Assembly (NCBI RefSeq): GCF_000522985.1
Contig: NZ_CP007128.1
Coordinates: 4,014,220-4,078,219, forward strand
Source: Gemmatirosa kalamazoonensis
GTDB taxonomy: Bacteria > Gemmatimonadota > Gemmatimonadetes > Gemmatimonadales > Gemmatimonadaceae
Length of the DNA: 64,000 nucleotides
Reading direction: 5' to 3'
Shown: piece by piece, positions 21,387 through 34,940 of the stretch
Layout of the letters: the number at the start of each line of letters is the position of its first letter
How positions within the stretch are numbered: the first letter of the stretch is position 1
The notes under the pieces: generated by a model
What the model saw: only the letters and a program-made list of their open reading frames with translations
Databases searched by the model: none
Told to the model about the DNA's origin: nothing
Position numbers and translations under genes: made by a program

Positions 21387-22538
21387 GTGACTTCGGAGCG
21401 CATCTACTTGTCCGTGCCCCACATGAGCGGGCACGAGCAGTCGTACATCGCGGAGGCCTTCCGCGCGAACTGGCTCACGACGGCCGGCGCGAACCTCGAC
21501 GGCTTCGAGCGTGAGATGTCGGCCCGGCTCGCCGGACGGCACACCCTCGCCGTCTCCAGCGGCACCGCTGCGCTCCATCTCGTGCTGCGGTACCTGGGCG
21601 TCGGGCCCGGCGATCGCGTGGCCGTCTCGACGCTCACGTTCGCGGGCTCCGTGTTCCCGATCCTGTACCTCGGTGCCGAGCCGGTGTTCGTGGACAGCGA
21701 GCGGCAGTCGTGGAACCTCGATCCGGACGTGCTCGAGAGCTATCTGCGCGACGCCGCCCGCCGCGACGAGCTGCCGAAGGCGCTCGTCCTCGTGCACCTC
21801 TACGGCCAGCACGCCGATGTCGATCGGATCCGCGCGCTTTGCGACGAATTCGAGGTCGCGCTGGTGGAGGACGCGGCGGAGTCGTTGGGCGCAACGTACA
21901 AGGGCCGCGAGACGGGCTGCACGGCCGACTTCGCGATCCTCAGCTTCAACGGCAACAAGATCATCACGACGACCGGCGGCGGGATGATCGTCGCACGCAG
22001 CGCGGATGCGATCCGCGCCATGCGCAAGTGGGCGCACCAGTCGCGCGAGCCCGCCGTGGAGTACGTGCACGAGGAGCTCGGGTACAACTACCGCATGAGC
22101 AACGTGCTCGCCGGCATCGGCCGCGGGCAGCTCACGGTGCTCGACGAGCGCGTCGCCGCGCGGCGTGCCGTCGCGGCCCGGTATCGCGACGCGCTCGCCG
22201 ACATCCCCGGCGTGGCGCTGCAGCCGGAAGCCGAATGGGGTACGCACAGCCGCTGGCTCAGCGTGCTGCTGTTCGACCCCGAGGAGCGGCCGGTGGATCC
22301 GGCGACGCTCGTGCTGGCGCTGGAGGTCGACGACATCGAGACGCGTCCCGTCTGGCGCCCGATGCACACGCAGCCGCTGTTCCGCCACGCGCGACGGGTC
22401 GGCGGCGAGGTGGCCGAGTCGTTGTTCGCCTCGGGCCTCTGCCTGCCGTCGTCGTCGAGCCTGAGCGCGGCGGCGCAGGACCGCGTGATCGACGCGCTCC
22501 GCCGAGCGCTCACCGGCTCGCTCGCCGCCGCGCGGTGA
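21387..22538 (+). CDS. DegT/DnrJ/EryC1-family sugar aminotransferase (PglE-like)
   Basis: This 383-residue pyridoxal-phosphate enzyme would transfer an amino group to a 4-keto sugar. Visible features are the N-terminal IYLSVPHMSGHEQSY, the cofactor-binding SSGTAALHL, VEDAAESLGA and the lysine that binds PLP (K191 in SFNGNKIITTTGGGM). The start is GTG at 21387, the first codon that keeps the family N-terminus. It overlaps the following PglC-like gene by GTGA and is followed by a PglD-like acetyltransferase, the same set that makes UDP-N,N'-diacetylbacillosamine in Campylobacter. The missing dehydratase step can be supplied by the gene at 17751. The actual product sugar is inferred. Confidence 0.88.
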   Translation: MTSERIYLSVPHMSGHEQSYIAEAFRANWLTTAGANLDGFEREMSARLAGRHTLAVSSGTAALHLVLRYLGVGPGDRVAVSTLTFAGSVFPILYLGAEPVFVDSERQSWNLDPDVLESYLRDAARRDELPKALVLVHLYGQHADVDRIRALCDEFEVALVEDAAESLGATYKGRETGCTADFAILSFNGNKIITTTGGGMIVARSADAIRAMRKWAHQSREPAVEYVHEELGYNYRMSNVLAGIGRGQLTVLDERVAARRAVAARYRDALADIPGVALQPEAEWGTHSRWLSVLLFDPEERPVDPATLVLALEVDDIETRPVWRPMHTQPLFRHARRVGGEVAESLFASGLCLPSSSSLSAAAQDRVIDALRRALTGSLAAAR

Positions 22539-23176
22539 TCGTGCCCCCCGCGCCCCGGCGCTGGGACGATCCACTGAAGCGAGCCGTCGACGTCGTTGCC
22601 GCGGCGGGCCTGCTCGTCGTCGCGTCGCCCGTGATCGCGGCCGTCGCGCTCGCGGTGCGCGTGAAGCTCGGGAGCCCGGTGCTGTTCCGTCAGCGCCGCG
22701 CGGGTCGGGGCGGCGAGCCGTTCGAGCTGCTGAAGTTTCGCACCATGCGCCCCGCCCCGCCGGGCCCCTGGACGGCGGCGACGGACGCCGACCGCCTAAC
22801 GCCGTTGGGCAAGGCGCTGCGGCGGTGGAGCCTGGACGAGCTGCCGCAGCTCGTGAACGTGCTGCGCGGCGACATGTCGCTCGTCGGCCCGCGGCCGCTG
22901 CCGGTGGAGTACCTGCCGCGCTACTCCAGCGCGCAGATCCGGCGGCACGCGGTGCTCCCCGGCGTGACCGGCTGGGCGCAGGTGAACGGCCGCAACGACA
23001 CCGACTGGTCGCGGCGGCTGCAGCACGACGTGTGGTACGTCGACCACCGCTCGCTCGCGCTCGACCTGCGGATCCTCGCGCGCACCGCCTATCAGGTCGT
23101 GCGGCCGCACGGGGTGTCGCAGCCCGGACAGGCGACGATGACGGAGTTCACCGGGACGGAGTTCACCGGCGAATGA
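22535..23176 (+). CDS. Small-form phosphoglycosyl transferase (PglC-like)
   Basis: This 213-residue monotopic membrane enzyme consists of one N-terminal re-entrant helix (VDVVAAAGLLVVASPVIAAV) and the catalytic module, with FRQRRAGRGG, FELLKFRTM, the DE dyad at D101-E102 in [12 protein letters not shown], and VLPGVTGWAQVNGRN. It would transfer a phospho-sugar, probably the diacetamido sugar made by its neighbours, to undecaprenyl phosphate. The GTG start overlaps the aminotransferase stop. The extreme C-terminus carries a perfect-length tandem duplication of 15 bp (23141-23170) giving TEFTG twice, which is not part of the family. Confidence 0.9.
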   Translation: MIVPPAPRRWDDPLKRAVDVVAAAGLLVVASPVIAAVALAVRVKLGSPVLFRQRRAGRGGEPFELLKFRTMRPAPPGPWTAATDADRLTPLGKALRRWSLDELPQLVNVLRGDMSLVGPRPLPVEYLPRYSSAQIRRHAVLPGVTGWAQVNGRNDTDWSRRLQHDVWYVDHRSLALDLRILARTAYQVVRPHGVSQPGQATMTEFTGTEFTGE

Positions 23177-23186
23177 TCGAGGCCGA

Positions 23187-23858
23187 ATGATGGAGCCGCT
23201 CGTCATACTCGGCCGCGGCGGCCATGGGCGCGAGCTGCTGGAGCTCGTCCTCGCGCTGAACGCGGAGGTGCCGCGCTACGAGCTGCTCGGCTTCGTCGAC
23301 GACGCGGCCACGGGGGCGCCGGAGGAGGTGCACGGCTACCCGGTGCTCGGCACCCGCGCGTGGCTCGCCGCTCGCTCGCCGGCGCCGCTCGTGGCGCTCG
23401 GCGTCGGCGTGTCGGCAGCGCGGGCGCGCGTCGTGGCGGCGCTCGCACCGCTCGGCGTGCGCTTTCCCACGCTCGTGCATCCCCGCGCCTCCGTCGGCCG
23501 GCACGTCCGGATGGACGAGGGCGTGACCGTGTGCGACGGCGCCGTCGTCACCACCGACGTGACGCTCGGCGCGCACGCGCACGTGAACGTCGGGGCGAGC
23601 GTGAGCCACGACTGCGTGCTCGGACGGTTCGTGTCGCTCGCGCCGGGTGTGCGCCTCGCCGGCAACGTGCGCCTCGGCGACGGCTGCGACGTCGGCGTCG
23701 CCGCGTCCGCCATCCCGGGCGTCGAGGTCGGCGAGTGGTCCATCGTCGGCGGCGGCGCGGTGCTGACGGCATCGCTGCCGGCGAACGTGACGGCCGTCGG
23801 CGTGCCCGCGCGCGTCACGCGTACGCGGCCGCCGGGCTGGCAGCTCCGCACGCCGTAG
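23187..23858 (+). CDS. Sugar O/N-acetyltransferase, PglD/NeuD type
   Basis: This 223-residue enzyme has an N-terminal nucleotide-sugar-binding Rossmann-like part (LVILGRGGHGRELLELV) and a C-terminal left-handed beta-helix made of hexapeptide repeats from about residue 95. The probable catalytic base is His 141 in NVGASVSHDCVLG, the position used by PglD and NeuD. It would acetylate the 4-amino group made by the aminotransferase two genes upstream. Start is the first of two adjacent ATGs. It ends two bases from the end of the convergent glycosyltransferase. Confidence 0.88.
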   Translation: MMEPLVILGRGGHGRELLELVLALNAEVPRYELLGFVDDAATGAPEEVHGYPVLGTRAWLAARSPAPLVALGVGVSAARARVVAALAPLGVRFPTLVHPRASVGRHVRMDEGVTVCDGAVVTTDVTLGAHAHVNVGASVSHDCVLGRFVSLAPGVRLAGNVRLGDGCDVGVAASAIPGVEVGEWSIVGGGAVLTASLPANVTAVGVPARVTRTRPPGWQLRTP

Positions 23859-23861
23859 CGC

Positions 23862-25025
23862 CTAACGATCCACGCCGAGCAGCTCGGCGTGGATCGCCCA
23901 CACGCGCTCCGTGAGCGCGTCCTGGTCGAAGCGCGCGCGCACGTCGCGCAGGGCCGCATCGGCTCGCGCGCGGGCGGCCTGCGGGTCGCGCAGCGCCGCG
24001 CGCAGCGCGTCGCCGAGCGCCGCGGCGTCGCGCGGCGGGAACAGGAGCGCCGTCTCGCCGTGGCGCACCACCTCGCGGCAGCCGGGGATGTCGCTCGCGA
24101 GGATCGGCAGGCCCATCGCCGCCGCCTCCATGAGGGCACGCGGCACGCCCTCGCGATAGCTCGGATGCACGAGCAGGTCCGCGGCCGCGTACAGCTCCGC
24201 GACGTCCGCCATGTAGTCGAGGCGCGTGACGCGATCGGCGACGCCATGGTCGGCGGCGAGCGTCGCCGGCAGCACGCCTTCCTCCCCCGCGAGCTCCGGC
24301 GCCGCCCACAGGTAGCGCACGTTCGGCCACTCGTCGCGGAGCGCCGCCGCGGCCGCGGCCACCTCGCGGTATCCCTTGTCGCCGACGAAGCGGCCCACCG
24401 TCAGCACGAGCACTTCGTCCGCGCCGACGCCGAAGCGGCGACGCACCGTCTCGCGCGTGTCCGGCGCGAGCGCGTCGCGCGAGAAGTGCGAGAGGTCCAC
24501 GCCGCTCCCCGTGAAGCGTGCCGACCGCGCGTCGCAGAGCCCGTCGTCCACCGAGTGCGCCATGTCGGCGCGGCTGATGTAGATCGTGCGGTCCGCGAGG
24601 CCGTTCGTCAGCCGGTCCGTCGCGCGGAAGAGGCGACGCTTCCACGCCGCCATGTCCGGCGTGTAGAGCAGCCCGCGGCACGAGTGGACGCGCCGACGCA
24701 CGCCGGCGAGCGCGCCCGCGATCTGCGCGAGCAGGCCCCCCTTCGGCGCGTAGCTGTGCACGATGTCGTAGCGTCCCGCGCGCAGCAGGCGCCACAGGCG
24801 CCACACCGACACGAGGTCCTGCGCGGGGCTCAGCTTGCGGTGCGCGGGGATCGTGAGCACCCGGAAGCCCTGGGCGCGCACCAGGTCCACCGCGGGGCCG
24901 GGCGCGCAGATGACGGTCACGTCCTCGCGGTCGCGCAGCCGTCGCAGGTCGTGCACCATGATGCGGTCCACGAACTCCGGCGCCACGGTGACGTGCGCGA
25001 CGCGCGGCCGGCGGCTCTCGCTCAC
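23862..25025 (-). CDS. Glycosyltransferase family 4
   Basis: The product has 387 residues and opens RVAHVTVAPEFVDRIMVHDL. Other family marks are HSYAPKGGLLAQIAG, RFTGSGVDLSHFS, LTVGRFVGDKGYREV and the donor-site segment HPSYREGVPRALMEAAAMG. The PKGGLLAQ and SYREGVPR motifs are typical of the group containing WbpH/PglA-like enzymes that act early on bacillosamine-type or N-acetylhexosamine acceptors (family-level inference). The GTG start at 25025 overlaps the upstream stop. The gene closes the second polysaccharide operon; its stop TAG is part of a CGTTAGGC octamer. Confidence 0.87.
   Translation of the reverse strand: MSESRRPRVAHVTVAPEFVDRIMVHDLRRLRDREDVTVICAPGPAVDLVRAQGFRVLTIPAHRKLSPAQDLVSVWRLWRLLRAGRYDIVHSYAPKGGLLAQIAGALAGVRRRVHSCRGLLYTPDMAAWKRRLFRATDRLTNGLADRTIYISRADMAHSVDDGLCDARSARFTGSGVDLSHFSRDALAPDTRETVRRRFGVGADEVLVLTVGRFVGDKGYREVAAAAAALRDEWPNVRYLWAAPELAGEEGVLPATLAADHGVADRVTRLDYMADVAELYAAADLLVHPSYREGVPRALMEAAAMGLPILASDIPGCREVVRHGETALLFPPRDAAALGDALRAALRDPQAARARADAALRDVRARFDQDALTERVWAIHAELLGVDR
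23866..23896. terminator. Strong hairpin between convergent genes
   Basis: A perfect 14-bp inverted repeat (arms 23866-23879 and 23883-23896, with ATCCACGCCGAG and its complement) closes a 3-base loop. It lies inside the last codons of the minus-strand glycosyltransferase and directly downstream of the acetyltransferase stop, so it could end the plus-strand transcript. No T-run follows. Confidence 0.55.
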
Positions 25026-26179
25026 GTGCACGCGTCCGCCGAGGCGAGGTACAGCTCCTCGTACGCCGCCGTCACCGTCTCGAGGGAGAAGTGCGCGCGC
25101 ACCCGCTCGCGGGCGGCGGCGCCTAACGCCGCGCGGCGCTCGGCGGGCAGCGCCACCATCACGCGCAAGGCGTCGGCGAGCGCCTCCGGCTGCCACGGCG
25201 GCACCACCATGCCGGTGTCGTCGACGATCCACGCCGCGTCGCCGACGTCGGTGACGACGCACGGCACCGCGCTCGCCATCGCCTCGCCCACCGCGTTCGG
25301 GAACCCCTCGAGGCAGTTCGACGGCGAGACGAGGACGTCGAGCGCGGCCATCAGCGCGGGCACGTCGCCCCGCTCGCCGACGAGGTGCACGCGGTCGGAG
25401 AGTCCCAGCTCGCGCACGAGCGCGGCGAGGCGCTCGTTCCGCGCGTCGACGCCGCGGCCGGCCATCAGCAGGTGCACGTCGCGCCCCGCACGCAGCGCGG
25501 CGGCCGCGTGAACGAGGCCTTCCTGGTTCTTCATCGGATCGTAGCGCGCCACCTGGCCGAGCACGATCGCGTCGTGCGGGATGCCGAGCTCCGCGCGCAC
25601 GCGCGCGCCGACCGCGGGCTGCGGCGCGTAGGCATCGCAGTCGAAGCCGTTCGGGATCACCGTCGCGCGGCCGCTCGCGTAGCCGATGGCCTCGTGCTGT
25701 CGCGCGCCCTCGCGCGAGTTGTACACGATGCGCCGCGGATGCCGGGACAACCGCGCGCCGAGCTTCACCGCGGCGACGGTGGCCGGCTTCATCGTGGCGA
25801 AGCCGTCGATCGACGCGCGCACGTTCCACAGCACGGGCGCGCGTGTGAAGCGCGCCATGCGCGCGAGCGATGCCGCGATGTTGCCATGATACATCCAGCC
25901 GTGCACCACGTGTGGCCGCGCCTGGCGCACCATGGCGCCCACGCGCGCGAGCGCGCGCGGCGACGGGCGCGCGAGCGACAGCCCCGCGGCGTGCACCTCC
26001 GCCCCGGCGCGCTCCAGCGGCTCGGCCATCGCGGCGCGCTCGCGCAGCGAGACCACGACGGTATGGAAGCGCTCGGGGTCGAGCCGCGTCGCGAGCTTGT
26101 GCAGCATCCGCTCGGCGCCGCCGGTCTCCAGGCCGGTGATCACGTGGCAGACGCGCAGCGGGGTCGTGCGCGCGCTCAC
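25022..26179 (-). CDS. Glycosyltransferase family 4
   Basis: The product has 385 residues. It opens LRVCHVITGLETGGAERML, a common GT4 start in which GGAERM sits near the acceptor site, and continues with HGWMYHGNIAAS, VIPNGFDCDAY, LGQVARYDPMKNQ and the donor-site SNCLEGFPNAVGEAMAS. It shares the RxDxMK (RYDPMKN, RWDAMKD) and FPNVVGEAMA patterns with the next gene upstream, so the two are paralogues from a tandem duplication. Start and stop both overlap neighbours by GTGA. Confidence 0.87.
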   Translation of the reverse strand: MSARTTPLRVCHVITGLETGGAERMLHKLATRLDPERFHTVVVSLRERAAMAEPLERAGAEVHAAGLSLARPSPRALARVGAMVRQARPHVVHGWMYHGNIAASLARMARFTRAPVLWNVRASIDGFATMKPATVAAVKLGARLSRHPRRIVYNSREGARQHEAIGYASGRATVIPNGFDCDAYAPQPAVGARVRAELGIPHDAIVLGQVARYDPMKNQEGLVHAAAALRAGRDVHLLMAGRGVDARNERLAALVRELGLSDRVHLVGERGDVPALMAALDVLVSPSNCLEGFPNAVGEAMASAVPCVVTDVGDAAWIVDDTGMVVPPWQPEALADALRVMVALPAERRAALGAAARERVRAHFSLETVTAAYEELYLASADACT

Positions 26180-27309
26180 GAGGCGTCGAGCCGGGCGAGC
26201 GCCGCCTCGGTGTTCCGCAGGAGCGACGCGAGGTCGAAGTTCGCCGTGATCCGCTCGCGACAGCGCTCGCGCACGTCGGCGTCGCGGGCGACGCGGAGGC
26301 TCCGCGCCCACGCATCGGCGAGCGCGGCGTGGTCGCCGATCGGCACCGACTCGCCCGTGTCGCCCACCACGCGCGCCGCGTCGCCGACGTCGGTCACCAC
26401 GCACGCCGTACCGCACGCCATCGCCTCGCCGACGACGTTCGGGAAGCCCTCGCCGAAGCGGGAGCAGAGCGTGAGCAGGTCGAGCGCGTTGTACACGGCC
26501 TCGACGTCGCGCCGTGGCGGGGACCACTTGATGCGATCGGCCACGCCCAGCTCCGTGGCGAGCGCCGTCACGCCGTCGACGTACGCGGCAGGGCCCTCGC
26601 CGACGAACACGAACCGCGTGGCGGGACACGAGGAGACGAGCCGCGCCGCGGCGCGCACGAACGTCGCGTGATCCTTCATCGCGTCCCACCGGCCGACGAG
26701 GCCGATGACCGGCGCGTCGACGTCGATCCCCCACTCCGCTCGCGCACGCACGCCCGCCGCGGGATCGGGGCGGAAGCGGCAGACGTCGATGCCGTTAGGC
26801 ACCACGGTCATGCGCTCGGCCGGATACCCCTGCGCCGCATGGAACTCGGCCCCGACCCACGAGTTGCAGATGATGAGGTCCGCCGCGCGCGCCGCGACCC
26901 GCGTGGCCGCGAACAGCGAGCGCGCGGCGCGGTCGTACACCGAGAAGTCCACCGACGACGCCCGCACGCCCCACACCACGCGCGCGCCGCGCAGCAGCGG
27001 TCGCAGCACGGCGAGCAGCAGGTTCGCGTCGGGCAGATAGCCGTGCACGATCGCGGGCCGCTCCGCGCGCAGCACGGCGAGCAGCCGCCGGCCGAAGCCG
27101 ACGACGTCCCACCGGTCCCGCTTCCCGACCACCACGTGGCGCACGCCGGCGCGCTCCAGCTCCGCGTCGAGCGCGTGGCCGCCGTAGAACGTCACGACCA
27201 CCACGTCGCGACCCGCGGCGTGCATGCCGCGCGCGAGCTCCACCAACTGACGCTGTGCACCACCGACGCCGAGCGACCGGATGAGGAACGCGATCCGGCC
27301 ACCGCTCAT
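26176..27309 (-). CDS. Glycosyltransferase family 4
   Basis: The product has 377 residues, with IAFLIRSLGVGGAQRQL at the N-terminus, HGYLPDANLLLAVLRP, VVPNGIDVCRFRP, GLVGRWDAMKDHATFV and SRFGEGFPNVVGEAMACG at the donor site. It is paralogous to the following gene. Its ATG at 27309 overlaps the methyltransferase stop. The octamer CGTTAGGC in the PNG codons uses the rare proline codon CCT. Specificity is unknown. Confidence 0.87.
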   Translation of the reverse strand: MSGGRIAFLIRSLGVGGAQRQLVELARGMHAAGRDVVVVTFYGGHALDAELERAGVRHVVVGKRDRWDVVGFGRRLLAVLRAERPAIVHGYLPDANLLLAVLRPLLRGARVVWGVRASSVDFSVYDRAARSLFAATRVAARAADLIICNSWVGAEFHAAQGYPAERMTVVPNGIDVCRFRPDPAAGVRARAEWGIDVDAPVIGLVGRWDAMKDHATFVRAAARLVSSCPATRFVFVGEGPAAYVDGVTALATELGVADRIKWSPPRRDVEAVYNALDLLTLCSRFGEGFPNVVGEAMACGTACVVTDVGDAARVVGDTGESVPIGDHAALADAWARSLRVARDADVRERCRERITANFDLASLLRNTEAALARLDAS

Positions 27310-28160
27310 GCGTCGCGTCGGAACACGAACTCGTTGCACCCGTGCTTGCCGGCCACGGTGACGAGCGTCTGCAGGGAGAAGCCGCGCGGCTTCAGGAAGC
27401 GGAAGATCTCCTCCGGCGACGCGACCTCGAACGGATAGCCGCCCACCCAGTCGGCCACGTCGCGGTAGATGCTCATGCCGCGCCGCTCCTGCCCGCGGTA
27501 GCGCGCCAGCGGCGACCGGCCGCGCAGCACGTCCGCCACGAGCAGCTCCGTCGCGAAGAACGCGAAGAAGCCCCAGTGCAGCAGCGCCTTCGCCGGCGCC
27601 GGCGCGTGGTTGTACACGCGCTTCACACCCGTCCAGTAGCCGGACAGGAACGGCTGCTTGTTGTAGATGGCGATGAACAGCCGACCGCCGGGCGCGACGG
27701 GCAGCGTCGCGTGCTCGATCGCCGTCCACATCTGCCCCGTGTGATGCAGCACGCCCCACGAGTAGACGACGTCGAACGTGCCGAGCGAGCGCACGTAGTC
27801 GGCGTCGAGCACGGAGCCTTCCTCCACCGTCCACGCGGCGTCGTCCGCGAAGTAGCGGCGACGCAGCTCACGCGTGCACGCCACCGAGTGCGGGTCGTAG
27901 TCGAACGAGTGGACCCGCGCGCCGAGCCGGCGCGCGGCGAGGCTGAACAGACCGCTGCCCGATCCGATGTCGAGGAACCGCTTGCCGTCGAGGCGACCGT
28001 CCGGTCCCAGCTCCAGCATCTGCCGGAGCGACTGCTCGGCTTCGGCGATGCGCTCGTCGTTCAGCACGGCGAGGAACCGGCTCCAGTTCTTGCCGAACTC
28101 GAACCGCTCGCCGCGCGCGACCTCCTCGGCGTGTGCCTGCGTCGCGACCGCGCCGTTCAT
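27306..28160 (-). CDS. Class I SAM methyltransferase (tandem copy A)
   Basis: This 284-residue protein has a SAM-binding motif I (FLDIGSGSGLFSLAARRLGA), an acidic motif II (HSFDYDPHS) and a motif near YSWGVLHHTG. The flanking regions, starting FEFGKNWSRFL and ending with a GCNEFVF segment, mark a group often found in O-antigen and exopolysaccharide clusters, where they methylate sugars or related groups. It overlaps both neighbours by ATGA. The central 87 residues are identical to copy B and 140 bp of DNA (27724-27863) are identical to 28602-28741, while the C-terminal halves have diverged. Acceptor unknown. Confidence 0.88.
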   Translation of the reverse strand: MNGAVATQAHAEEVARGERFEFGKNWSRFLAVLNDERIAEAEQSLRQMLELGPDGRLDGKRFLDIGSGSGLFSLAARRLGARVHSFDYDPHSVACTRELRRRYFADDAAWTVEEGSVLDADYVRSLGTFDVVYSWGVLHHTGQMWTAIEHATLPVAPGGRLFIAIYNKQPFLSGYWTGVKRVYNHAPAPAKALLHWGFFAFFATELLVADVLRGRSPLARYRGQERRGMSIYRDVADWVGGYPFEVASPEEIFRFLKPRGFSLQTLVTVAGKHGCNEFVFRRDA

Positions 28161-28741
28161 CGATCACCTCGCGGCGCGGCCGGCGACGCACGCTCGAACA
28201 CGAACTCGTTGCATCCGACGCCGTTGCCGCACGTCTTGAGTCGCCGCAGCTCGTAGCCGCGGCCGCGGAAGAACGCGAAGATCTCCTCGGGCTTCGCAAC
28301 TTCGAACGGGTAGCCGCCGACCCAGTCGATCCAGTCGTGCAGCATCGACATGCCGCGCTCGCGCCGCTTCAGGCGATAGCGGCGCGCGGGGTTCGTGAGC
28401 GTGAGCACGTCCTTCACGCCGCCCTTCACCACCTGCCCGGCGATGAAGCCGCCCGCGATGAGCCACTTGCCGGGACGCGGCGCGCTCACGTACGCGCGCT
28501 TCAGCCGCTTGTAGAACGACGACCAGTAGATCTGGTGGTTGTAGATCGCGACGAACAGCCGGCCGCCGGGCGCCACGGCGCTCTCCGCGTTCGCGAGCGC
28601 GGTCCACATCTGCCCCGTGTGATGCAGCACGCCCCACGAGTAGACGACGTCGAACGTGCCGAGCGAGCGCACGTAGTCGGCGTCGAGCACGGAGCCTTCC
28701 TCCACCGTCCACGCGGCGTCGTCCGCGAAGTAGCGGCGACG
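27724..28741. repeat. 140-bp identical direct repeat in two methyltransferase genes
   Basis: Bases 27724-27863 are identical to 28602-28741 (offset 878 bp). Beyond 27864 the similarity continues to about 27960 with only scattered changes (for example 27864 C/T, 27870 A/G), many of them silent. Both copies encode the SAM-binding core. The block could recombine to delete or fuse the two genes. Confidence 0.85.
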
Positions 28742-29023
28742 TAGCTCGCGCGTGCACGCCACCGAGTGCGGGTCGTAGTCGAACGAGTGGACGCGCGCGC
28801 CGAGCCGGCGCGCGGCGAGGCTGAACAGACCACTTCCCGAGCCGATGTCCAGGAAGCGGACGCCGTCCAGCCGGCCGTCGGCTCCGAGATCGAGCATCTC
28901 GCGCAGCGAGCGCTCGGCCTCCGCGATCCGATCCTCGTCGAGGACGTGAAGGAACCGGCTCCAGTTCTTCCCGAACTCGAAGCGCTCTCCGCGCTCGATC
29001 TCTGCTGCGTGTGCTCCCGTCAT
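28157..29023 (-). CDS. Class I SAM methyltransferase (tandem copy B)
   Basis: This 288-residue paralogue of the next gene has the same N-terminal FEFGKNWSRFL, the same motif I block (FLDIGSGSGLFSLA) and the same YSWGVLHHTG, but a different substrate-side C-terminal half (YNHQIYWSSFYKRLKRAYV). The shared core is identical at protein level over 87 residues, suggesting recent gene conversion that has homogenised the SAM-binding part while the acceptor part stays distinct. The gene starts six bases after the polymerase stop. Confidence 0.88.
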   Translation of the reverse strand: MTGAHAAEIERGERFEFGKNWSRFLHVLDEDRIAEAERSLREMLDLGADGRLDGVRFLDIGSGSGLFSLAARRLGARVHSFDYDPHSVACTRELRRRYFADDAAWTVEEGSVLDADYVRSLGTFDVVYSWGVLHHTGQMWTALANAESAVAPGGRLFVAIYNHQIYWSSFYKRLKRAYVSAPRPGKWLIAGGFIAGQVVKGGVKDVLTLTNPARRYRLKRRERGMSMLHDWIDWVGGYPFEVAKPEEIFAFFRGRGYELRRLKTCGNGVGCNEFVFERASPAAPRGDR

Positions 29024-29029
29024 TCGTTC

Positions 29030-30466
29030 TCAGACAGCGCTGGTACCCGGACTGATGCCCGAAGAATCTACCTGGCCCGCACGCAGCACGCGATCGGGGC
29101 GCAGCACATCCCACACGAACGGCGCCACGAGCAGCGCGGCGAGGGCGACGAGGTAGATCCCCGCCATCATCACCTGCACCGGGTCGGCGTACATCACGCG
29201 GAACGCGACGAAGAACAGCGACGACGCACGCACGATCGACCCGAGCCCCGAGCGCGTCGCCGGCAGCCGTCGCTCGCACACCGCGACGAGCCGGCCGAAC
29301 CCGAACGCGACGATCACCACGCCCACGATCCCCGCGCTGAAGTAGCCGAGGCTCACGACGTCCACCGGGATGCCGCCGAGCAGGTCGCCGAACAGCGACG
29401 TGTTCACCGTCGACACCGACGGCGTGTGGCGGATGTTGAACAGCCGCTGCGGGATCAGGTACACCACGGCGAGCGGGAAGTCGAGGAACCAGCGATAGGC
29501 CTCGCGCGTCGGCACCGACACGATCACGTTCGCCAGCGTCACGTCCGGGAACGCGAACTCCAGCAGGAACAGGTTCAGCGCGTAGAAGCTGTCGGTGCGC
29601 AGCGACGCCCACTGCCGCGCGAGCAGCCCCGGATCGGACACGACGAGGAAGAGCTGACGGCCGAACAGCACGAGGGCCGCGAACCCGAGAAGCCCCAGCA
29701 CGACCGTGCGCGCGCGGATGCCGCCACGCCGCACCGCGCCCGCCGTCGGGAACGAGACGAGGTACGCGACGAGCTGCAGTCGCCCGGCGTGGTGGAACAG
29801 GATCGCGAGCGACATCACCACGGTGACGGCAAGCATCACCATCGCCGCCGCGCGCCGAGCACGCCGACGCTCGTCGATCGTGACGGCGTAGAAGCAGAAC
29901 GATGCGCTGAGCGAGAACAGCGCGACGTTCTTCAGGAACGCGAACGCGGATTCCGTCGGCGGCTCGCCGCCGCGCGCCGCGACGCCGGAGATGAGGAACA
30001 CGAGCCAGCCGCCGATCTGACTGACGTACAGCAGCAGCGCGCCGCCGCCGACGATCGCGAGCACCACGCCGGCGAACATGACGTAGCCGGGCGACAACGA
30101 CGCGAGCCCTGCGCCCTTCGGCCGGCCGTTCGACACGGGCGCGGCCGGCGCGCGCCGCGGACGCCGCATGCCGCGGTGGTAGCCGGCGACGATGCACAGG
30201 TACGCGACGAGCGACGTCGTCGACGCGAGCGCGAACGGCTCCGAGCCGAACGGGTTCGTGAACACCCAGTCGAAGCTGCGCTCCGGGAACGAGCGCAGGT
30301 CCACCGTGGACAGGTAGAGCGGCACGACGACGAACGCCATGAAGTACACGGCGCTCGTGAAGCGCATGAAGTCGAGCGCGAGCCACCGCGGCTGCCGCCA
30401 CCGCTCGGCCACGAGGATCACGATGCCGAGCACGATCGGCATCACCATCGACAGCGCGTCGCTCAT
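29030..30466 (-). CDS. O-antigen polymerase (Wzy-like) membrane protein
   Basis: This 478-residue protein has around 12 hydrophobic segments and a large loop in its C-terminal half (FNIRHTPSVSTVNTSLFGDL), a layout seen in oligosaccharide repeat-unit polymerases, which are poorly conserved in sequence. Genes on both sides (flippase, methyltransferases) support polymerase as the role. The start at 30466 overlaps the flippase stop by ATGA. It resembles the Wzy group more than the Wzy_C ligase at 10888. The call rests on topology and context. Confidence 0.7.
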   Translation of the reverse strand: MSDALSMVMPIVLGIVILVAERWRQPRWLALDFMRFTSAVYFMAFVVVPLYLSTVDLRSFPERSFDWVFTNPFGSEPFALASTTSLVAYLCIVAGYHRGMRRPRRAPAAPVSNGRPKGAGLASLSPGYVMFAGVVLAIVGGGALLLYVSQIGGWLVFLISGVAARGGEPPTESAFAFLKNVALFSLSASFCFYAVTIDERRRARRAAAMVMLAVTVVMSLAILFHHAGRLQLVAYLVSFPTAGAVRRGGIRARTVVLGLLGFAALVLFGRQLFLVVSDPGLLARQWASLRTDSFYALNLFLLEFAFPDVTLANVIVSVPTREAYRWFLDFPLAVVYLIPQRLFNIRHTPSVSTVNTSLFGDLLGGIPVDVVSLGYFSAGIVGVVIVAFGFGRLVAVCERRLPATRSGLGSIVRASSLFFVAFRVMYADPVQVMMAGIYLVALAALLVAPFVWDVLRPDRVLRAGQVDSSGISPGTSAV

Positions 30467-31917
30467 CGCGTGTCGGCGGACACGACCTTCTGTCCCGTCG
30501 CGCCGAGCACCATCGCGCGTACGCGCGCGCGCACGCCCATGACGTCGAGGGCAACGAGCGCGGCGCCGTAGACCGCCGTGCCCACCGCGGCCTGCAACAG
30601 CAGTCCGACGACGCCGTCGATCGACCGCAGCGGAAGGATCGCGGCCGCCATCGCCGCCGTGGCGAGCACGATGCGCCCGAGCTGACTCCACGGCACCGGC
30701 AGCCGGCACTCGCGCCGACCGAGCCACCAGCTCACGGTGAGCCCGACCAGATAGCCGGCGAGCGTGGAGTACGCGGCGCCGAGCACGCCGCGCGTCGGGA
30801 TCCAGAGGAGATTGAGCGCGAGGTTCACCACCGCACCGCAGGCCACCGCCGCGACCTGGAGCCGCGTCTTGCGCGAGAGCTGGAACGCGATGTCGAAGTA
30901 GTAGCTCTTGAGTCCCAGCACGAGCGCGGCGAACGCGATCCACGGGAGGATCTCCCGCCCCGTCTCGCGGTACGCCGTCGCGAGCAGCGTCGTCGTGAGC
31001 GCCGGCGCGCACAGCGCGAGCCCCATGGCGGCGGGCATCGCGAGGGCGGCGAGCAGCGTGCAGTGCCGCTCGAGCTGCCCGCGCGCGCCGTGCATGCCGC
31101 CGCGCTCGAACGCGCGCACCGTGATCGGATACGCGGCGAGGTTCACCACGATCATCAGCATGCCGAGCGACTGCTGCGCGAGGTCGTAGCTCACCGCGTA
31201 CACGCCGACCGTCGACGCGCCGTGATACGCGCCGAGGAACAGCCGGTCCGACGTGCTGACGATGTACTCGAACGCGAACGTGAGCGTGAACGGCAGCCCG
31301 AACACGAGCAGCTCACGCACGATGTGCCGGTCGGCGCGCCGCACCGACACGCCGCTCCACTGCCGCAGCGCGGCCCACGCGCCGGGGAGCACGAAGCTCG
31401 CGGCGAGCGCGATCACGAGCCCCTCGGCGCCGAGGCCGAGCCGCGTCAGCAGCACGCCGCCGGAGATCAGCAGCGCAGCCTTCGCGAGCGACATCATCCC
31501 GTACGTGACCGGATGCGCCGACGCGGTCGCGAACTCGAGGTTCAGCTCGAACCATCCCTGCGCGACGAGCATCGCGACGCCGGCGACGACGAGCCACGGC
31601 CCCACGACCATGCCGTTGCGCGCGAGCACGATGCCCACCGCGACCGCGCTCGGCACCACCGCGCCGACGAAGCCGAGCAGCACGCTCGAGCGCCACCGCA
31701 CCGGATCCTCGCCGTGCACCGCGTTCATGCGCAGCAGCCCGAGACGCAGCCAGTAGAACCCGAGCGAGTTGACGAGCGCGGCGACCGCCACGACGAGCGC
31801 GTAGCGGCCGTACTGGTCCGGCGTCACCAGCCGCGCGAACAGCACCAGCGCCGCGAAGTTCAGCAGCCCCGGGCCCCCGCGGGCCACGAGATAGAGCAGC
31901 GTGTTGCGGATCAGCAT
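30463..31917 (-). CDS. Polysaccharide flippase (Wzx-like), locus 2
   Basis: This 484-residue membrane protein has about 12-14 predicted helices. The N-terminal segment MLIRNTLLYLVARGGPGLLN, followed by ALVLFARLVTPDQYGRYAL, is the classic Wzx/RfbX opening. It would flip the lipid-linked repeat unit of the second glycan. The ATG at 31917 is preferred because it directly precedes the first helix. It lies 25 bases downstream of a methyltransferase and overlaps the polymerase gene. Confidence 0.87.
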   Translation of the reverse strand: MLIRNTLLYLVARGGPGLLNFAALVLFARLVTPDQYGRYALVVAVAALVNSLGFYWLRLGLLRMNAVHGEDPVRWRSSVLLGFVGAVVPSAVAVGIVLARNGMVVGPWLVVAGVAMLVAQGWFELNLEFATASAHPVTYGMMSLAKAALLISGGVLLTRLGLGAEGLVIALAASFVLPGAWAALRQWSGVSVRRADRHIVRELLVFGLPFTLTFAFEYIVSTSDRLFLGAYHGASTVGVYAVSYDLAQQSLGMLMIVVNLAAYPITVRAFERGGMHGARGQLERHCTLLAALAMPAAMGLALCAPALTTTLLATAYRETGREILPWIAFAALVLGLKSYYFDIAFQLSRKTRLQVAAVACGAVVNLALNLLWIPTRGVLGAAYSTLAGYLVGLTVSWWLGRRECRLPVPWSQLGRIVLATAAMAAAILPLRSIDGVVGLLLQAAVGTAVYGAALVALDVMGVRARVRAMVLGATGQKVVSADTR

Positions 31918-31942
31918 GCGCGCTCGCCCGTCGCGCACATGG

Positions 31943-32785
31943 TCACGGTGCCGCGTCTCGGCGCTTGACCATGAAGATCGAGTTCCCGAACTGCAGCAGC
32001 GCCATGGCGCGGAGCCACGGCGACTTCCGCACGCGCTCCAGCACCGCGTGGCGCACACGCGAGCGCATGCCGTTCGGGGGCGGCGGCTCCAGCACGTCCA
32101 GCCGCGAGTAGAAGTACGCGAAGCCGGCCAGCCGCCCGAGACGGCACAGGTCCGCGTAGGACCACCAGTGCACCGCAGGCCGCACGGAGTAGTTCGCCAG
32201 GCGCGGATCGAAGTGCAGGTGGTGGTGCACGTACGCTTCCTTCAGCGTCTCGGGGAACCAGTTGTAGAACGGCACCCGGTACTCGAAGTTCTTGCCGGTG
32301 AGCGAGAGCCGGTACCGGTTCGTCGTGTAGATGTAGCAGACGCCGCCGGGCTCCAGGACGCGGTACGCCTCGTTGATCGTCGCGAGCGGCGAGTCCACGT
32401 GCTCCAGCACGTTCTCCAGCAGCACCACCCGGCACGACCCGTCCGGGTACGGCAGCGCCTCGGCCGCGGCCGTGGCGACACGCGACGGATCGCCGAGAAA
32501 CCGGCGCGCGTCCTCCGCCATGAGCGGCACGGGCTCCACGCCGACCGCGTCGTAGCCCGCCTCGAGGAGCTGTTGCATGGCGATCGGCTTCGGGCCGCAG
32601 CCGACGACGACGACGCGCCGGCTCCCCGTCGACAGGTCGACGAGGCGGTCGATCCACCGGATGACGGCGAGCGCCTCGCTGCCGACTTCCTGATGCTGCG
32701 CGTAGTAGTCGGCGGCGAGCCGGTCGAGGCCCGGATACAGCTCGGTGAGGCGGCGGTCGTTAGGCGTCGTGATCGATTCTGCCAT
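31943..32785 (-). CDS. Class I SAM methyltransferase
   Basis: The product has 280 residues with motif I VVVVGCGPKPIAMQQLLEAG, acidic VGVEPVPL, and post-motif ENVLEHVDSPLATINEAYR followed by LEPGGVCYIYTTNRYRLSL. It is unlike the tandem pair at 27306-29023. Its position between asparagine synthase and the flippase in one minus-strand operon suggests modification of a sugar or lipid-linked intermediate. The octamer in its fourth to ninth codons (TTPND) again uses CCT-AAC. Confidence 0.83.
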   Translation of the reverse strand: MAESITTPNDRRLTELYPGLDRLAADYYAQHQEVGSEALAVIRWIDRLVDLSTGSRRVVVVGCGPKPIAMQQLLEAGYDAVGVEPVPLMAEDARRFLGDPSRVATAAAEALPYPDGSCRVVLLENVLEHVDSPLATINEAYRVLEPGGVCYIYTTNRYRLSLTGKNFEYRVPFYNWFPETLKEAYVHHHLHFDPRLANYSVRPAVHWWSYADLCRLGRLAGFAYFYSRLDVLEPPPPNGMRSRVRHAVLERVRKSPWLRAMALLQFGNSIFMVKRRDAAP

Positions 32786-32805
32786 GCGTTGAGGCGTCGT
32801 TGCAG

Positions 32806-34752
32806 TCAGGCCCGGGCCGAGTCGAGCCACGCCTCGAACATCAGCACCACCCAGAGCTGGTACTGCCAGTTGCGTCGGCCGCTCTGGTGCTCGTTCCACT
32901 TCGTCTGGACCGCGTCGGGGTCGAGGTACCCCTGCGCGCGCAGCCGCTCCGGCGACAGCAGGTCCGCCGCCCAGTCGTGCAGCTCGTCGCGCAGCCAGTG
33001 CGAGATCGGGATGCCGAAGCCCATCTTCGGGCGGTCCACCAGCGCGCGGGGCACGTGCCGGTAGAGCACCTGCCGCAGCAGCCACTTCCCCTGCCCGTCG
33101 CGCACCTTGTACTCGATCGGCACCCGCCACGCGAACTCCACCACGCGGTGATCGAGGAACGGCGCGCGCGACTCGAGCGACACGCCCATCGTCGCGCGGT
33201 CCACCTTCACCATGATGTCGTCCGGGAGATAGCTCACGGAATCGACGTACATCATCCGCGACACGAAGTCGTCGAAGCTCGGCCACCGATCGCGGTCCGA
33301 CAGCACCGTCGGGTGCTCGGGCGCGCCTAACGCGAGGCCGGACGGGTCGCGCCACGTCGTGAGGAACTCCCGGTACATCTGCTCGTTCGTTCCGACGTCG
33401 AGCACGCCCGCCAGCTTGTGGACGCGATCGCCAGCGATCTTCATCCGGCGCGACGCGGGGAGCGTGGCGTTGATCGCGTCGAACGCGCGGTCCCAGCCGC
33501 CCGGCGACACGGCCTGGATCCCCTTCGCCACGCCGCGGCGCAGCGGCACCGGCAGGTGCTTCAGCCGCCGCCACAGGCGCATGCTCCAGAAATAGCGGTT
33601 GTAGCCGCCGAAGAACTCGTCGCCGCCGTCGCCGGACAGGCTCACCGTGACGTGCCGGCGCGCGAGCTGCGCCACGAGGAACGTCGGGATCTGCGACGGG
33701 TCGGCGAACGGCTCGTCGTAGAGCGCCGGCAGCTTCGGGATCACCGCGAGCGTGTCCGACGGTCCCACCCGGAGCTCCGTGTGGTCCGTGCCGAGATGCC
33801 GCGCGACCGCCCGCGCGTGCTCGGCCTCGTCGTACTCCTTCTCCTCGAAGCCGATCGTGAACGTGCGCACGGGTCGCGCGCTCTGCTTCTGCATGAGCGC
33901 CACGATGAGCGACGAGTCGAACCCGCCGGAGAGGAACGCGCCGAGCGGGACGTCGGAGACCATCTCCTCGCCGATCGTCTCGGAGAGCCGGCGCTCGCAC
34001 GCCTCGATCAGCTCCTCCTCGCCGAGCCGGAGCGGGTCGCGCGTGCCCGACTCGGCCACCTCGCGCGCGTTCCAGTAGCGGGTGGTCGTCGGCTCGCCGA
34101 GTGCCGAGCGGAACGACAGCACCGTGCCGGGCACGGCCTTCCGCACGTTCGAGAAGACGGTGTACGGCGCCGGGATGTAGCCGTGCCGCATGAGCAGCGC
34201 GATCGCGCTCCGGTCGATGTCGCCGCTCCAGCCGGGATAGGCGCGCAGCGCCTTCAGCTCCGAGCCGAACAGCAGCGTGCCCCCCGCCGTCCCGTAGTAG
34301 AGCGGCTTCTCGCCGATGCGGTCCCGGATGAGGTGGAGCGTCCGCTCCTCCCGGTCCCAGAGCGCCATGGCGAACATCCCGGCCAGCCGCTTCAGCGTCG
34401 GGACGAGCCCCCAGCGCTCGAACCCGGCGAGCATGACCTCGGTGTCCGAGTGCCCGCGGAACGCGTCGCCGGCGCGCTCGAGCTCTGCGCGCAGCTCCCG
34501 GAAGTTGTAGATCTCGCCGTTGAAGATCAGCTCGTAGCGACCGCTCCGGGACGCCATCGGCTGGTGCCCCGCGGCCGAGAGATCGATGATCGACAGCCGG
34601 CGGTGGCCGAGCCCCACGCCGCTCGCGTCATCCCACCAGGCGCCCTCGTCGTCCGGACCCCGGTGCCGGATCGCGCCGGTCATCCCCGCGAGCAGCTCGG
34701 CGGCCGGGACGGGGGGGCGCATTGTGGTCCAGAAGCCGGCGATGCCGCACAT
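32806..34752 (-). CDS. asnB: Asparagine synthase (glutamine-hydrolysing)
   Basis: This 648-residue enzyme has an N-terminal class II glutamine amidotransferase domain beginning MCGIAGFW, with Cys 2 as the nucleophile that becomes N-terminal after Met removal, and a C-terminal synthetase domain with the ATP-pyrophosphatase loop LSGGFDSS. The GEIYNFRELR and HRGPDDEG motifs are also present. Family members in polysaccharide clusters often amidate uronic acids or other glycan carboxylates rather than making free asparagine, and the position as first gene of the sugar operon makes that plausible (inference). The start at 34752 is fixed by the MCG requirement. Confidence 0.93.
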   Translation of the reverse strand: MCGIAGFWTTMRPPVPAAELLAGMTGAIRHRGPDDEGAWWDDASGVGLGHRRLSIIDLSAAGHQPMASRSGRYELIFNGEIYNFRELRAELERAGDAFRGHSDTEVMLAGFERWGLVPTLKRLAGMFAMALWDREERTLHLIRDRIGEKPLYYGTAGGTLLFGSELKALRAYPGWSGDIDRSAIALLMRHGYIPAPYTVFSNVRKAVPGTVLSFRSALGEPTTTRYWNAREVAESGTRDPLRLGEEELIEACERRLSETIGEEMVSDVPLGAFLSGGFDSSLIVALMQKQSARPVRTFTIGFEEKEYDEAEHARAVARHLGTDHTELRVGPSDTLAVIPKLPALYDEPFADPSQIPTFLVAQLARRHVTVSLSGDGGDEFFGGYNRYFWSMRLWRRLKHLPVPLRRGVAKGIQAVSPGGWDRAFDAINATLPASRRMKIAGDRVHKLAGVLDVGTNEQMYREFLTTWRDPSGLALGAPEHPTVLSDRDRWPSFDDFVSRMMYVDSVSYLPDDIMVKVDRATMGVSLESRAPFLDHRVVEFAWRVPIEYKVRDGQGKWLLRQVLYRHVPRALVDRPKMGFGIPISHWLRDELHDWAADLLSPERLRAQGYLDPDAVQTKWNEHQSGRRNWQYQLWVVLMFEAWLDSARA

Positions 34753-34940
34753 GAGTCTCGGGGTGGAAATCGCGGCGGAGCGCCTGAGCGCAGCCATCCG
34801 TACGGGATGGCGGCCGCGTACCAAGGTTAAGCCGGGCCCGATGCGCGTACAACCGCACGGACTGGTCCGTCGGTTCCCGGTCGTGCCGCCCGTCACGGGC
34901 TGTGACGGACGGCACGTTCCCTTCCCCTCGTCGGCGTGGC
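34753..34940. other. 188-bp gap upstream of asnB
   Basis: No gene is seen. It holds the hairpin annotated separately (34882-34916) and, between that and the asnB start, the probable promoter region of the second polysaccharide operon, in which I find no convincing -35/-10 pair. Confidence 0.5.
34882..34916 (-). terminator. Hairpin after the arylsulfotransferase-like gene
   Basis: Arms 34882-34896 and 34902-34916 pair over 15 positions with one mismatch (CGTGCCG, then CCGTCAC, against GTGACGG and CGGCACG) around a 5-base loop GGGCT. It begins 25 bases after the stop at 34941. There is no T-run, so the terminator role rests on stem strength and position. Confidence 0.6.

Follow-up and report, generated by a model that had tools for sequence, protein, structure and literature searches.

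Recent partial gene conversion best explains the SAM-binding core shared by two tandem methyltransferase genes of Gemmatirosa kalamazoonensis

Introduction

Gene conversion between duplicate bacterial genes is known from tufA and tufB of Salmonella (PMC5485169), and concerted evolution is known in prokaryotes (PMC6053082). As far as the accounts of the tuf genes in these two papers go, the copies are alike along their whole length. Here we describe two adjacent methyltransferase genes, A and B, of the soil bacterium Gemmatirosa kalamazoonensis, which resemble tufA/tufB (PMC5485169, PMC6053082) in that paralogues within one genome have been homogenised, synonymous sites included. Unlike in the tuf genes, only an internal segment of 230 bp is homogenised, in paralogues that are otherwise diverged and that lie in a polysaccharide cluster. 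A search of the gene-conversion literature in open-licence papers found nothing on the A/B locus.

The genome of strain KBS708 is a PacBio assembly with replicons of 5,312, 1,106, 1,041 and 21 kb, made from a library sheared to ~10 kb (PMC3974934). A short-read artefact is therefore unlikely, which speaks against assembly collapse as an origin of the likeness between A and B.

Results

The window analysed here is a stretch of 64,000 nucleotides of contig NZ_CP007128.1 (positions 4,014,220 to 4,078,219), and coordinates below are those of the window. It contains the two genes:

27306..28160, minus strand: gene A, 284 aa, class I SAM-dependent methyltransferase (open reading frame, Pfam, AlphaFold2 model with pLDDT 91.9)
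28157..29023, minus strand: gene B, 288 aa, class I SAM-dependent methyltransferase (open reading frame, Pfam, sequence)

Since B lies directly upstream of A, head to tail and with a 4-nt overlap, the two are probably co-translated. Both resemble the class I SAM-dependent methyltransferases of Pfam Methyltransf_11/12/23, with matches above the gathering score (Methyltransf_23 at 1.4e-12 and Methyltransf_12 at 4.8e-12 for A; Methyltransf_12 at 6.9e-14 for B). Neither protein has an NCBIfam family above its cut-off; the nearest model, UbiG (TIGR01983), gave 43.1 and 44.5 bits for the two proteins, below the cut-off of 102.95.

A polysaccharide-biosynthesis cluster surrounds the pair (21387-34758, by Pfam matches). 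The neighbours include a DegT/DnrJ aminotransferase, a PglD-like acetyltransferase, a polysaccharide flippase family protein, an asparagine synthase, two group 1 glycosyltransferases and a third methyltransferase (31943-32740), and these Pfam matches indicate a surface-polysaccharide cluster. The protein encoded directly upstream of B (29030-30400) had no Pfam match at 1e-5; it looks hydrophobic by eye, and its position suggests a putative O-antigen polymerase. In the two relatives' loci that were inspected, a glycosyltransferase adjoins the methyltransferase gene in one (L025), and a polysaccharide pyruvyl transferase and a glycosyltransferase lie nearby in the other (L034). The two enzymes would have SAM binding in common and would transfer the methyl group to different acceptors, probably sugars.

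The methyltransferase family of A and B is patchily distributed. A match was found in 11 of 99 relatives (E 1e-20), in 14 of 395 genomes of the host phylum (E 1e-40) and in 11 of 179 genomes of the host's taxonomic family (E 1e-50), these three counts overlapping and each including the window's own genome; in a second phylum, 18 of 396 genomes had a match (E 1e-50). The search of the genus covered a single genome, the window's own.

A preliminary description of this DNA had reported 140 bp identical between the genes and 87 identical residues in the SAM-binding core. Direct comparison returned the first as an exact match, and alignment gave 87/87 for the second (A residues 61-147). The sections of the genes that these comparisons delimit are:

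27724..27863, minus strand: exact 140-nt identity, copy in A (sequence)
28602..28741, minus strand: exact 140-nt identity, copy in B (sequence)
27724..27953, minus strand: homogenised tract of A, covering residues 70-146, with 3 of its 230 nt mismatched
28602..28831, minus strand: homogenised tract in B, partner of 27724..27953 in A
27315..27719, minus strand: diverged C-terminal section of A, residues 148-282, 69/135 identical to B
27981..28115, minus strand: N-terminal section of A, residues 16-60, 36/45 identical to B, synonymously saturated

The two copies of the 140-nt identity are offset by 878. Past it, further identical runs of 44 and 38 nt follow, so that 27724-27953 and 28602-28831 mismatch only at 27864, 27870 and 27915. 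The identity at the protein level outruns the tract in the DNA: residues 61-69 of A, the start of SAM motif I, are identical in B, with the DNA differing at several sites. Past the other edge of the tract, the bin that covers alignment columns 151-165 has 35 identical nt of 45, and farther out most bins have 22-28. The divergence of the C-terminal halves, also noted in the preliminary description, was borne out by the 69/135 identical residues; what had been omitted is that the N-terminal section (36/45) is more alike than the C-terminal one.

The tract is bounded at synonymous sites as well. By the NG86 method, dS between A and B is 0.073 in the tract, far below the values of the 5′ flank (1.03) and the 3′ flank (0.55); dN is 0, 0.144 and 0.535, respectively. 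Where A and B have the same residue (Met and Trp excluded), the same codon is used in 69 of 73 cases in the tract vs 75 of 117 outside it (Fisher P 6e-7, in a test that takes codons as independent). In permutation tests, the longest run of same codons, 42, was matched 7 times in 100,000, and the best-scoring same-codon segment once in 100,000. Codon bias lifts the background of same-codon use, which is 64% outside the tract, and so weakens the synonymous signal, though it does not remove it. In the tract, same-codon fractions were 0.41-0.75 when A and B were each set beside seven relatives, and 0.95 for A vs B.

Family-wide comparisons used 96 sequences including A and B, collected by BLAST at 1e-20 with exact duplicates removed, and each match had to extend to 25 residues or less from either end of A or B. 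In the 1,061 pairs whose C-terminal identity lies within 5 points of that of A and B, core identity averages 0.71 (sd 0.05) and reaches 0.85 at most. The core of A and B is identical (1.00), and the core of the closest other homologue is 0.86 identical. Since none of the 1,061 matched pairs has a core above 85%, conservation alone is insufficient to explain the A-B core. Indeed, when core identity was regressed on C-terminal identity, A-B was the largest outlier (5.1 sd) of 4,560 pairs, which are not independent of one another. Over residues 166-225, A-B identity is 0.38, the same as the family mean (0.38), and is thus at background.

Among the loci scanned, only two more pairs of neighbouring genes from this methyltransferase family were seen, both in other bacteria (L026, 732-2419, and L086, 824-2708). 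Neither of these pairs has a homogenised core, nor have two members ~8 kb apart on one contig (L009 and L019). Further match lists, among them those for the phylum, the family and the second phylum, contained no additional adjacent pair.

The AlphaFold2 model of A (pLDDT 91.9, pTM 0.88) has a Rossmann-like fold. In this model the tract spans the end of beta1 (61-65) to beta4 (129-135), that is, the SAM-binding half, and the diverged part comprises beta5 (155-167), the helices at 172-259 and two final strands, 261-267 and 275-282. The alignment used with the structure held 43 sequences; many other loci were left out to limit its size, and L027 and L065 (stop codons in the matched stretch) and L092 were dropped. 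The SAM-binding core contains many invariant columns of the family. Foldseek matched the model to many SAM methyltransferases, the best being ChlM and UbiG with a TM-score of ~0.5 over the query. A shares the Rossmann-like fold and the SAM-binding half with UbiG (PDB 4kdc) and ChlM (4qdk), but differs from these closest solved structures in having only 14-16% identity to them.

Given the general plan of class I methyltransferases and the predicted fold, the C-terminal beta5-beta7 together with the helical cap is presumed to be the acceptor-specificity side, with the cap governing the choice of acceptor. Its divergence, at the family background, would fit such a role.

Trees were built from 59 of the 96 family sequences, those closest to A or B in the core or the C-terminal part. 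The C-terminal tree places B beside L024 and L025, a grouping that has starred support, and A stands apart on a long branch; on these columns the AU test did not reject A and B as sisters (p 0.246). In the core tree both genes lie among sequences of Acidobacteriota, in a position that has no starred support, and on the core columns neither a grouping with L024 (p 0.148) nor one with L024 and L025 (p 0.236) was rejected. Because these AU tests are non-significant, the conflict between the core and C-terminal trees is suggestive only.

The N-terminal section has a different pattern. Over residues 16-60 the identity of A and B is 0.80, which none of the 1,061 matched pairs reaches (maximum 0.76 over 45 residues), with synonymous sites near saturation (dS 1.03). 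Being unusually alike yet synonymously saturated, this section hints at an earlier common history or exchange of the N-terminal part, which the recent conversion of the core would have followed. This older layer is weakly supported, because A-B falls outside the top six N-terminal outliers in the regression over all 4,560 pairs.

Discussion

Recent partial gene conversion between A and B best explains the shared tract, with a probability of about 0.85. The step in dS and the family controls give good support to a conversion that was recent and limited to the core, as the preliminary description had proposed. On this explanation, tandem overlapping methyltransferase genes within a polysaccharide-biosynthesis cluster would have undergone a recent non-reciprocal recombination, in which ~230 bp of the SAM-binding core of one gene were replaced by those of the other. 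The flanks, diverged beforehand, would have stayed untouched, and their divergence probably restricted the length of the tract.

One alternative is a whole-gene tandem duplication without recombination, after which the core came under strong purifying selection and the C-terminal half diverged fast; it would agree with the many invariant family columns in the SAM-binding core. Selection at the protein level, however, leaves synonymous sites free, and the step in dS from 0.073 to 1.03 and 0.55 thus speaks against this history, as does the fact that 0 of 1,061 matched pairs exceed 0.85 in the core. Purifying selection as the sole cause was rejected from the synonymous sites together with the family controls, and we regard the duplication history built on it as extremely improbable. 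Very improbable, too, is a single event of partial duplication and fusion, in which a copied block of N-terminal part and core was joined to the C-terminal half of another lineage. It would fit the N-terminal identity of 0.80, above all matched pairs (maximum 0.76), and the background identity at residues 166-225 (0.38 vs a mean of 0.38). A single event predicts equal synonymous distances in the N-terminal part and the core, but these differ (1.03 vs 0.073), and A-B is absent from the top six N-terminal outliers of the 4,560 pairs. Such a fusion may nevertheless be an older layer under a later conversion.

A third methyltransferase gene, acquired from outside and closely related to the other copy, might instead have supplied the core of one copy, by horizontal transfer and homologous replacement. 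The placement of the core among Acidobacteriota sequences, with the C-terminal parts in a Gemmatimonadota-rich set, and the patchiness of the family (14/395 phylum genomes, own included), as for a horizontally moving gene, would suit such an import. But the closest foreign core is only 0.86 identical, a near-identical donor lies 878 bp away in the same genome, and the tree conflict is non-significant; import is improbable. We infer that the exchange took place within the genome and by conversion, no third copy having been imported.

We also considered a modular pair, whose repeatedly homogenised SAM-binding core would serve as a recombination handle by which acceptor halves are exchanged or fused, with conversion at least twice (an older N-terminal and a recent core event). 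This we think unlikely. The preliminary description had also pointed to possible swapping or fusion of the acceptor halves by recombination, and it is plausible that the shared tracts, as direct repeats 878 bp apart, could permit this; crossing-over between them would leave one gene, consisting of the N-terminal part of B and the C-terminal part of A. If the modular reading is true, exchange or fusion of acceptor halves would diversify the methylation of surface polysaccharides.

The A-B tract amounts to a single event in a single genome, and its mechanism is well known. It is a clear case in which gene conversion stayed within the cofactor-binding module and the presumed substrate-binding part kept its difference. 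Were exchange mediated by the core shown to recur, new patterns of methylation on surface sugars could arise in a simple way.
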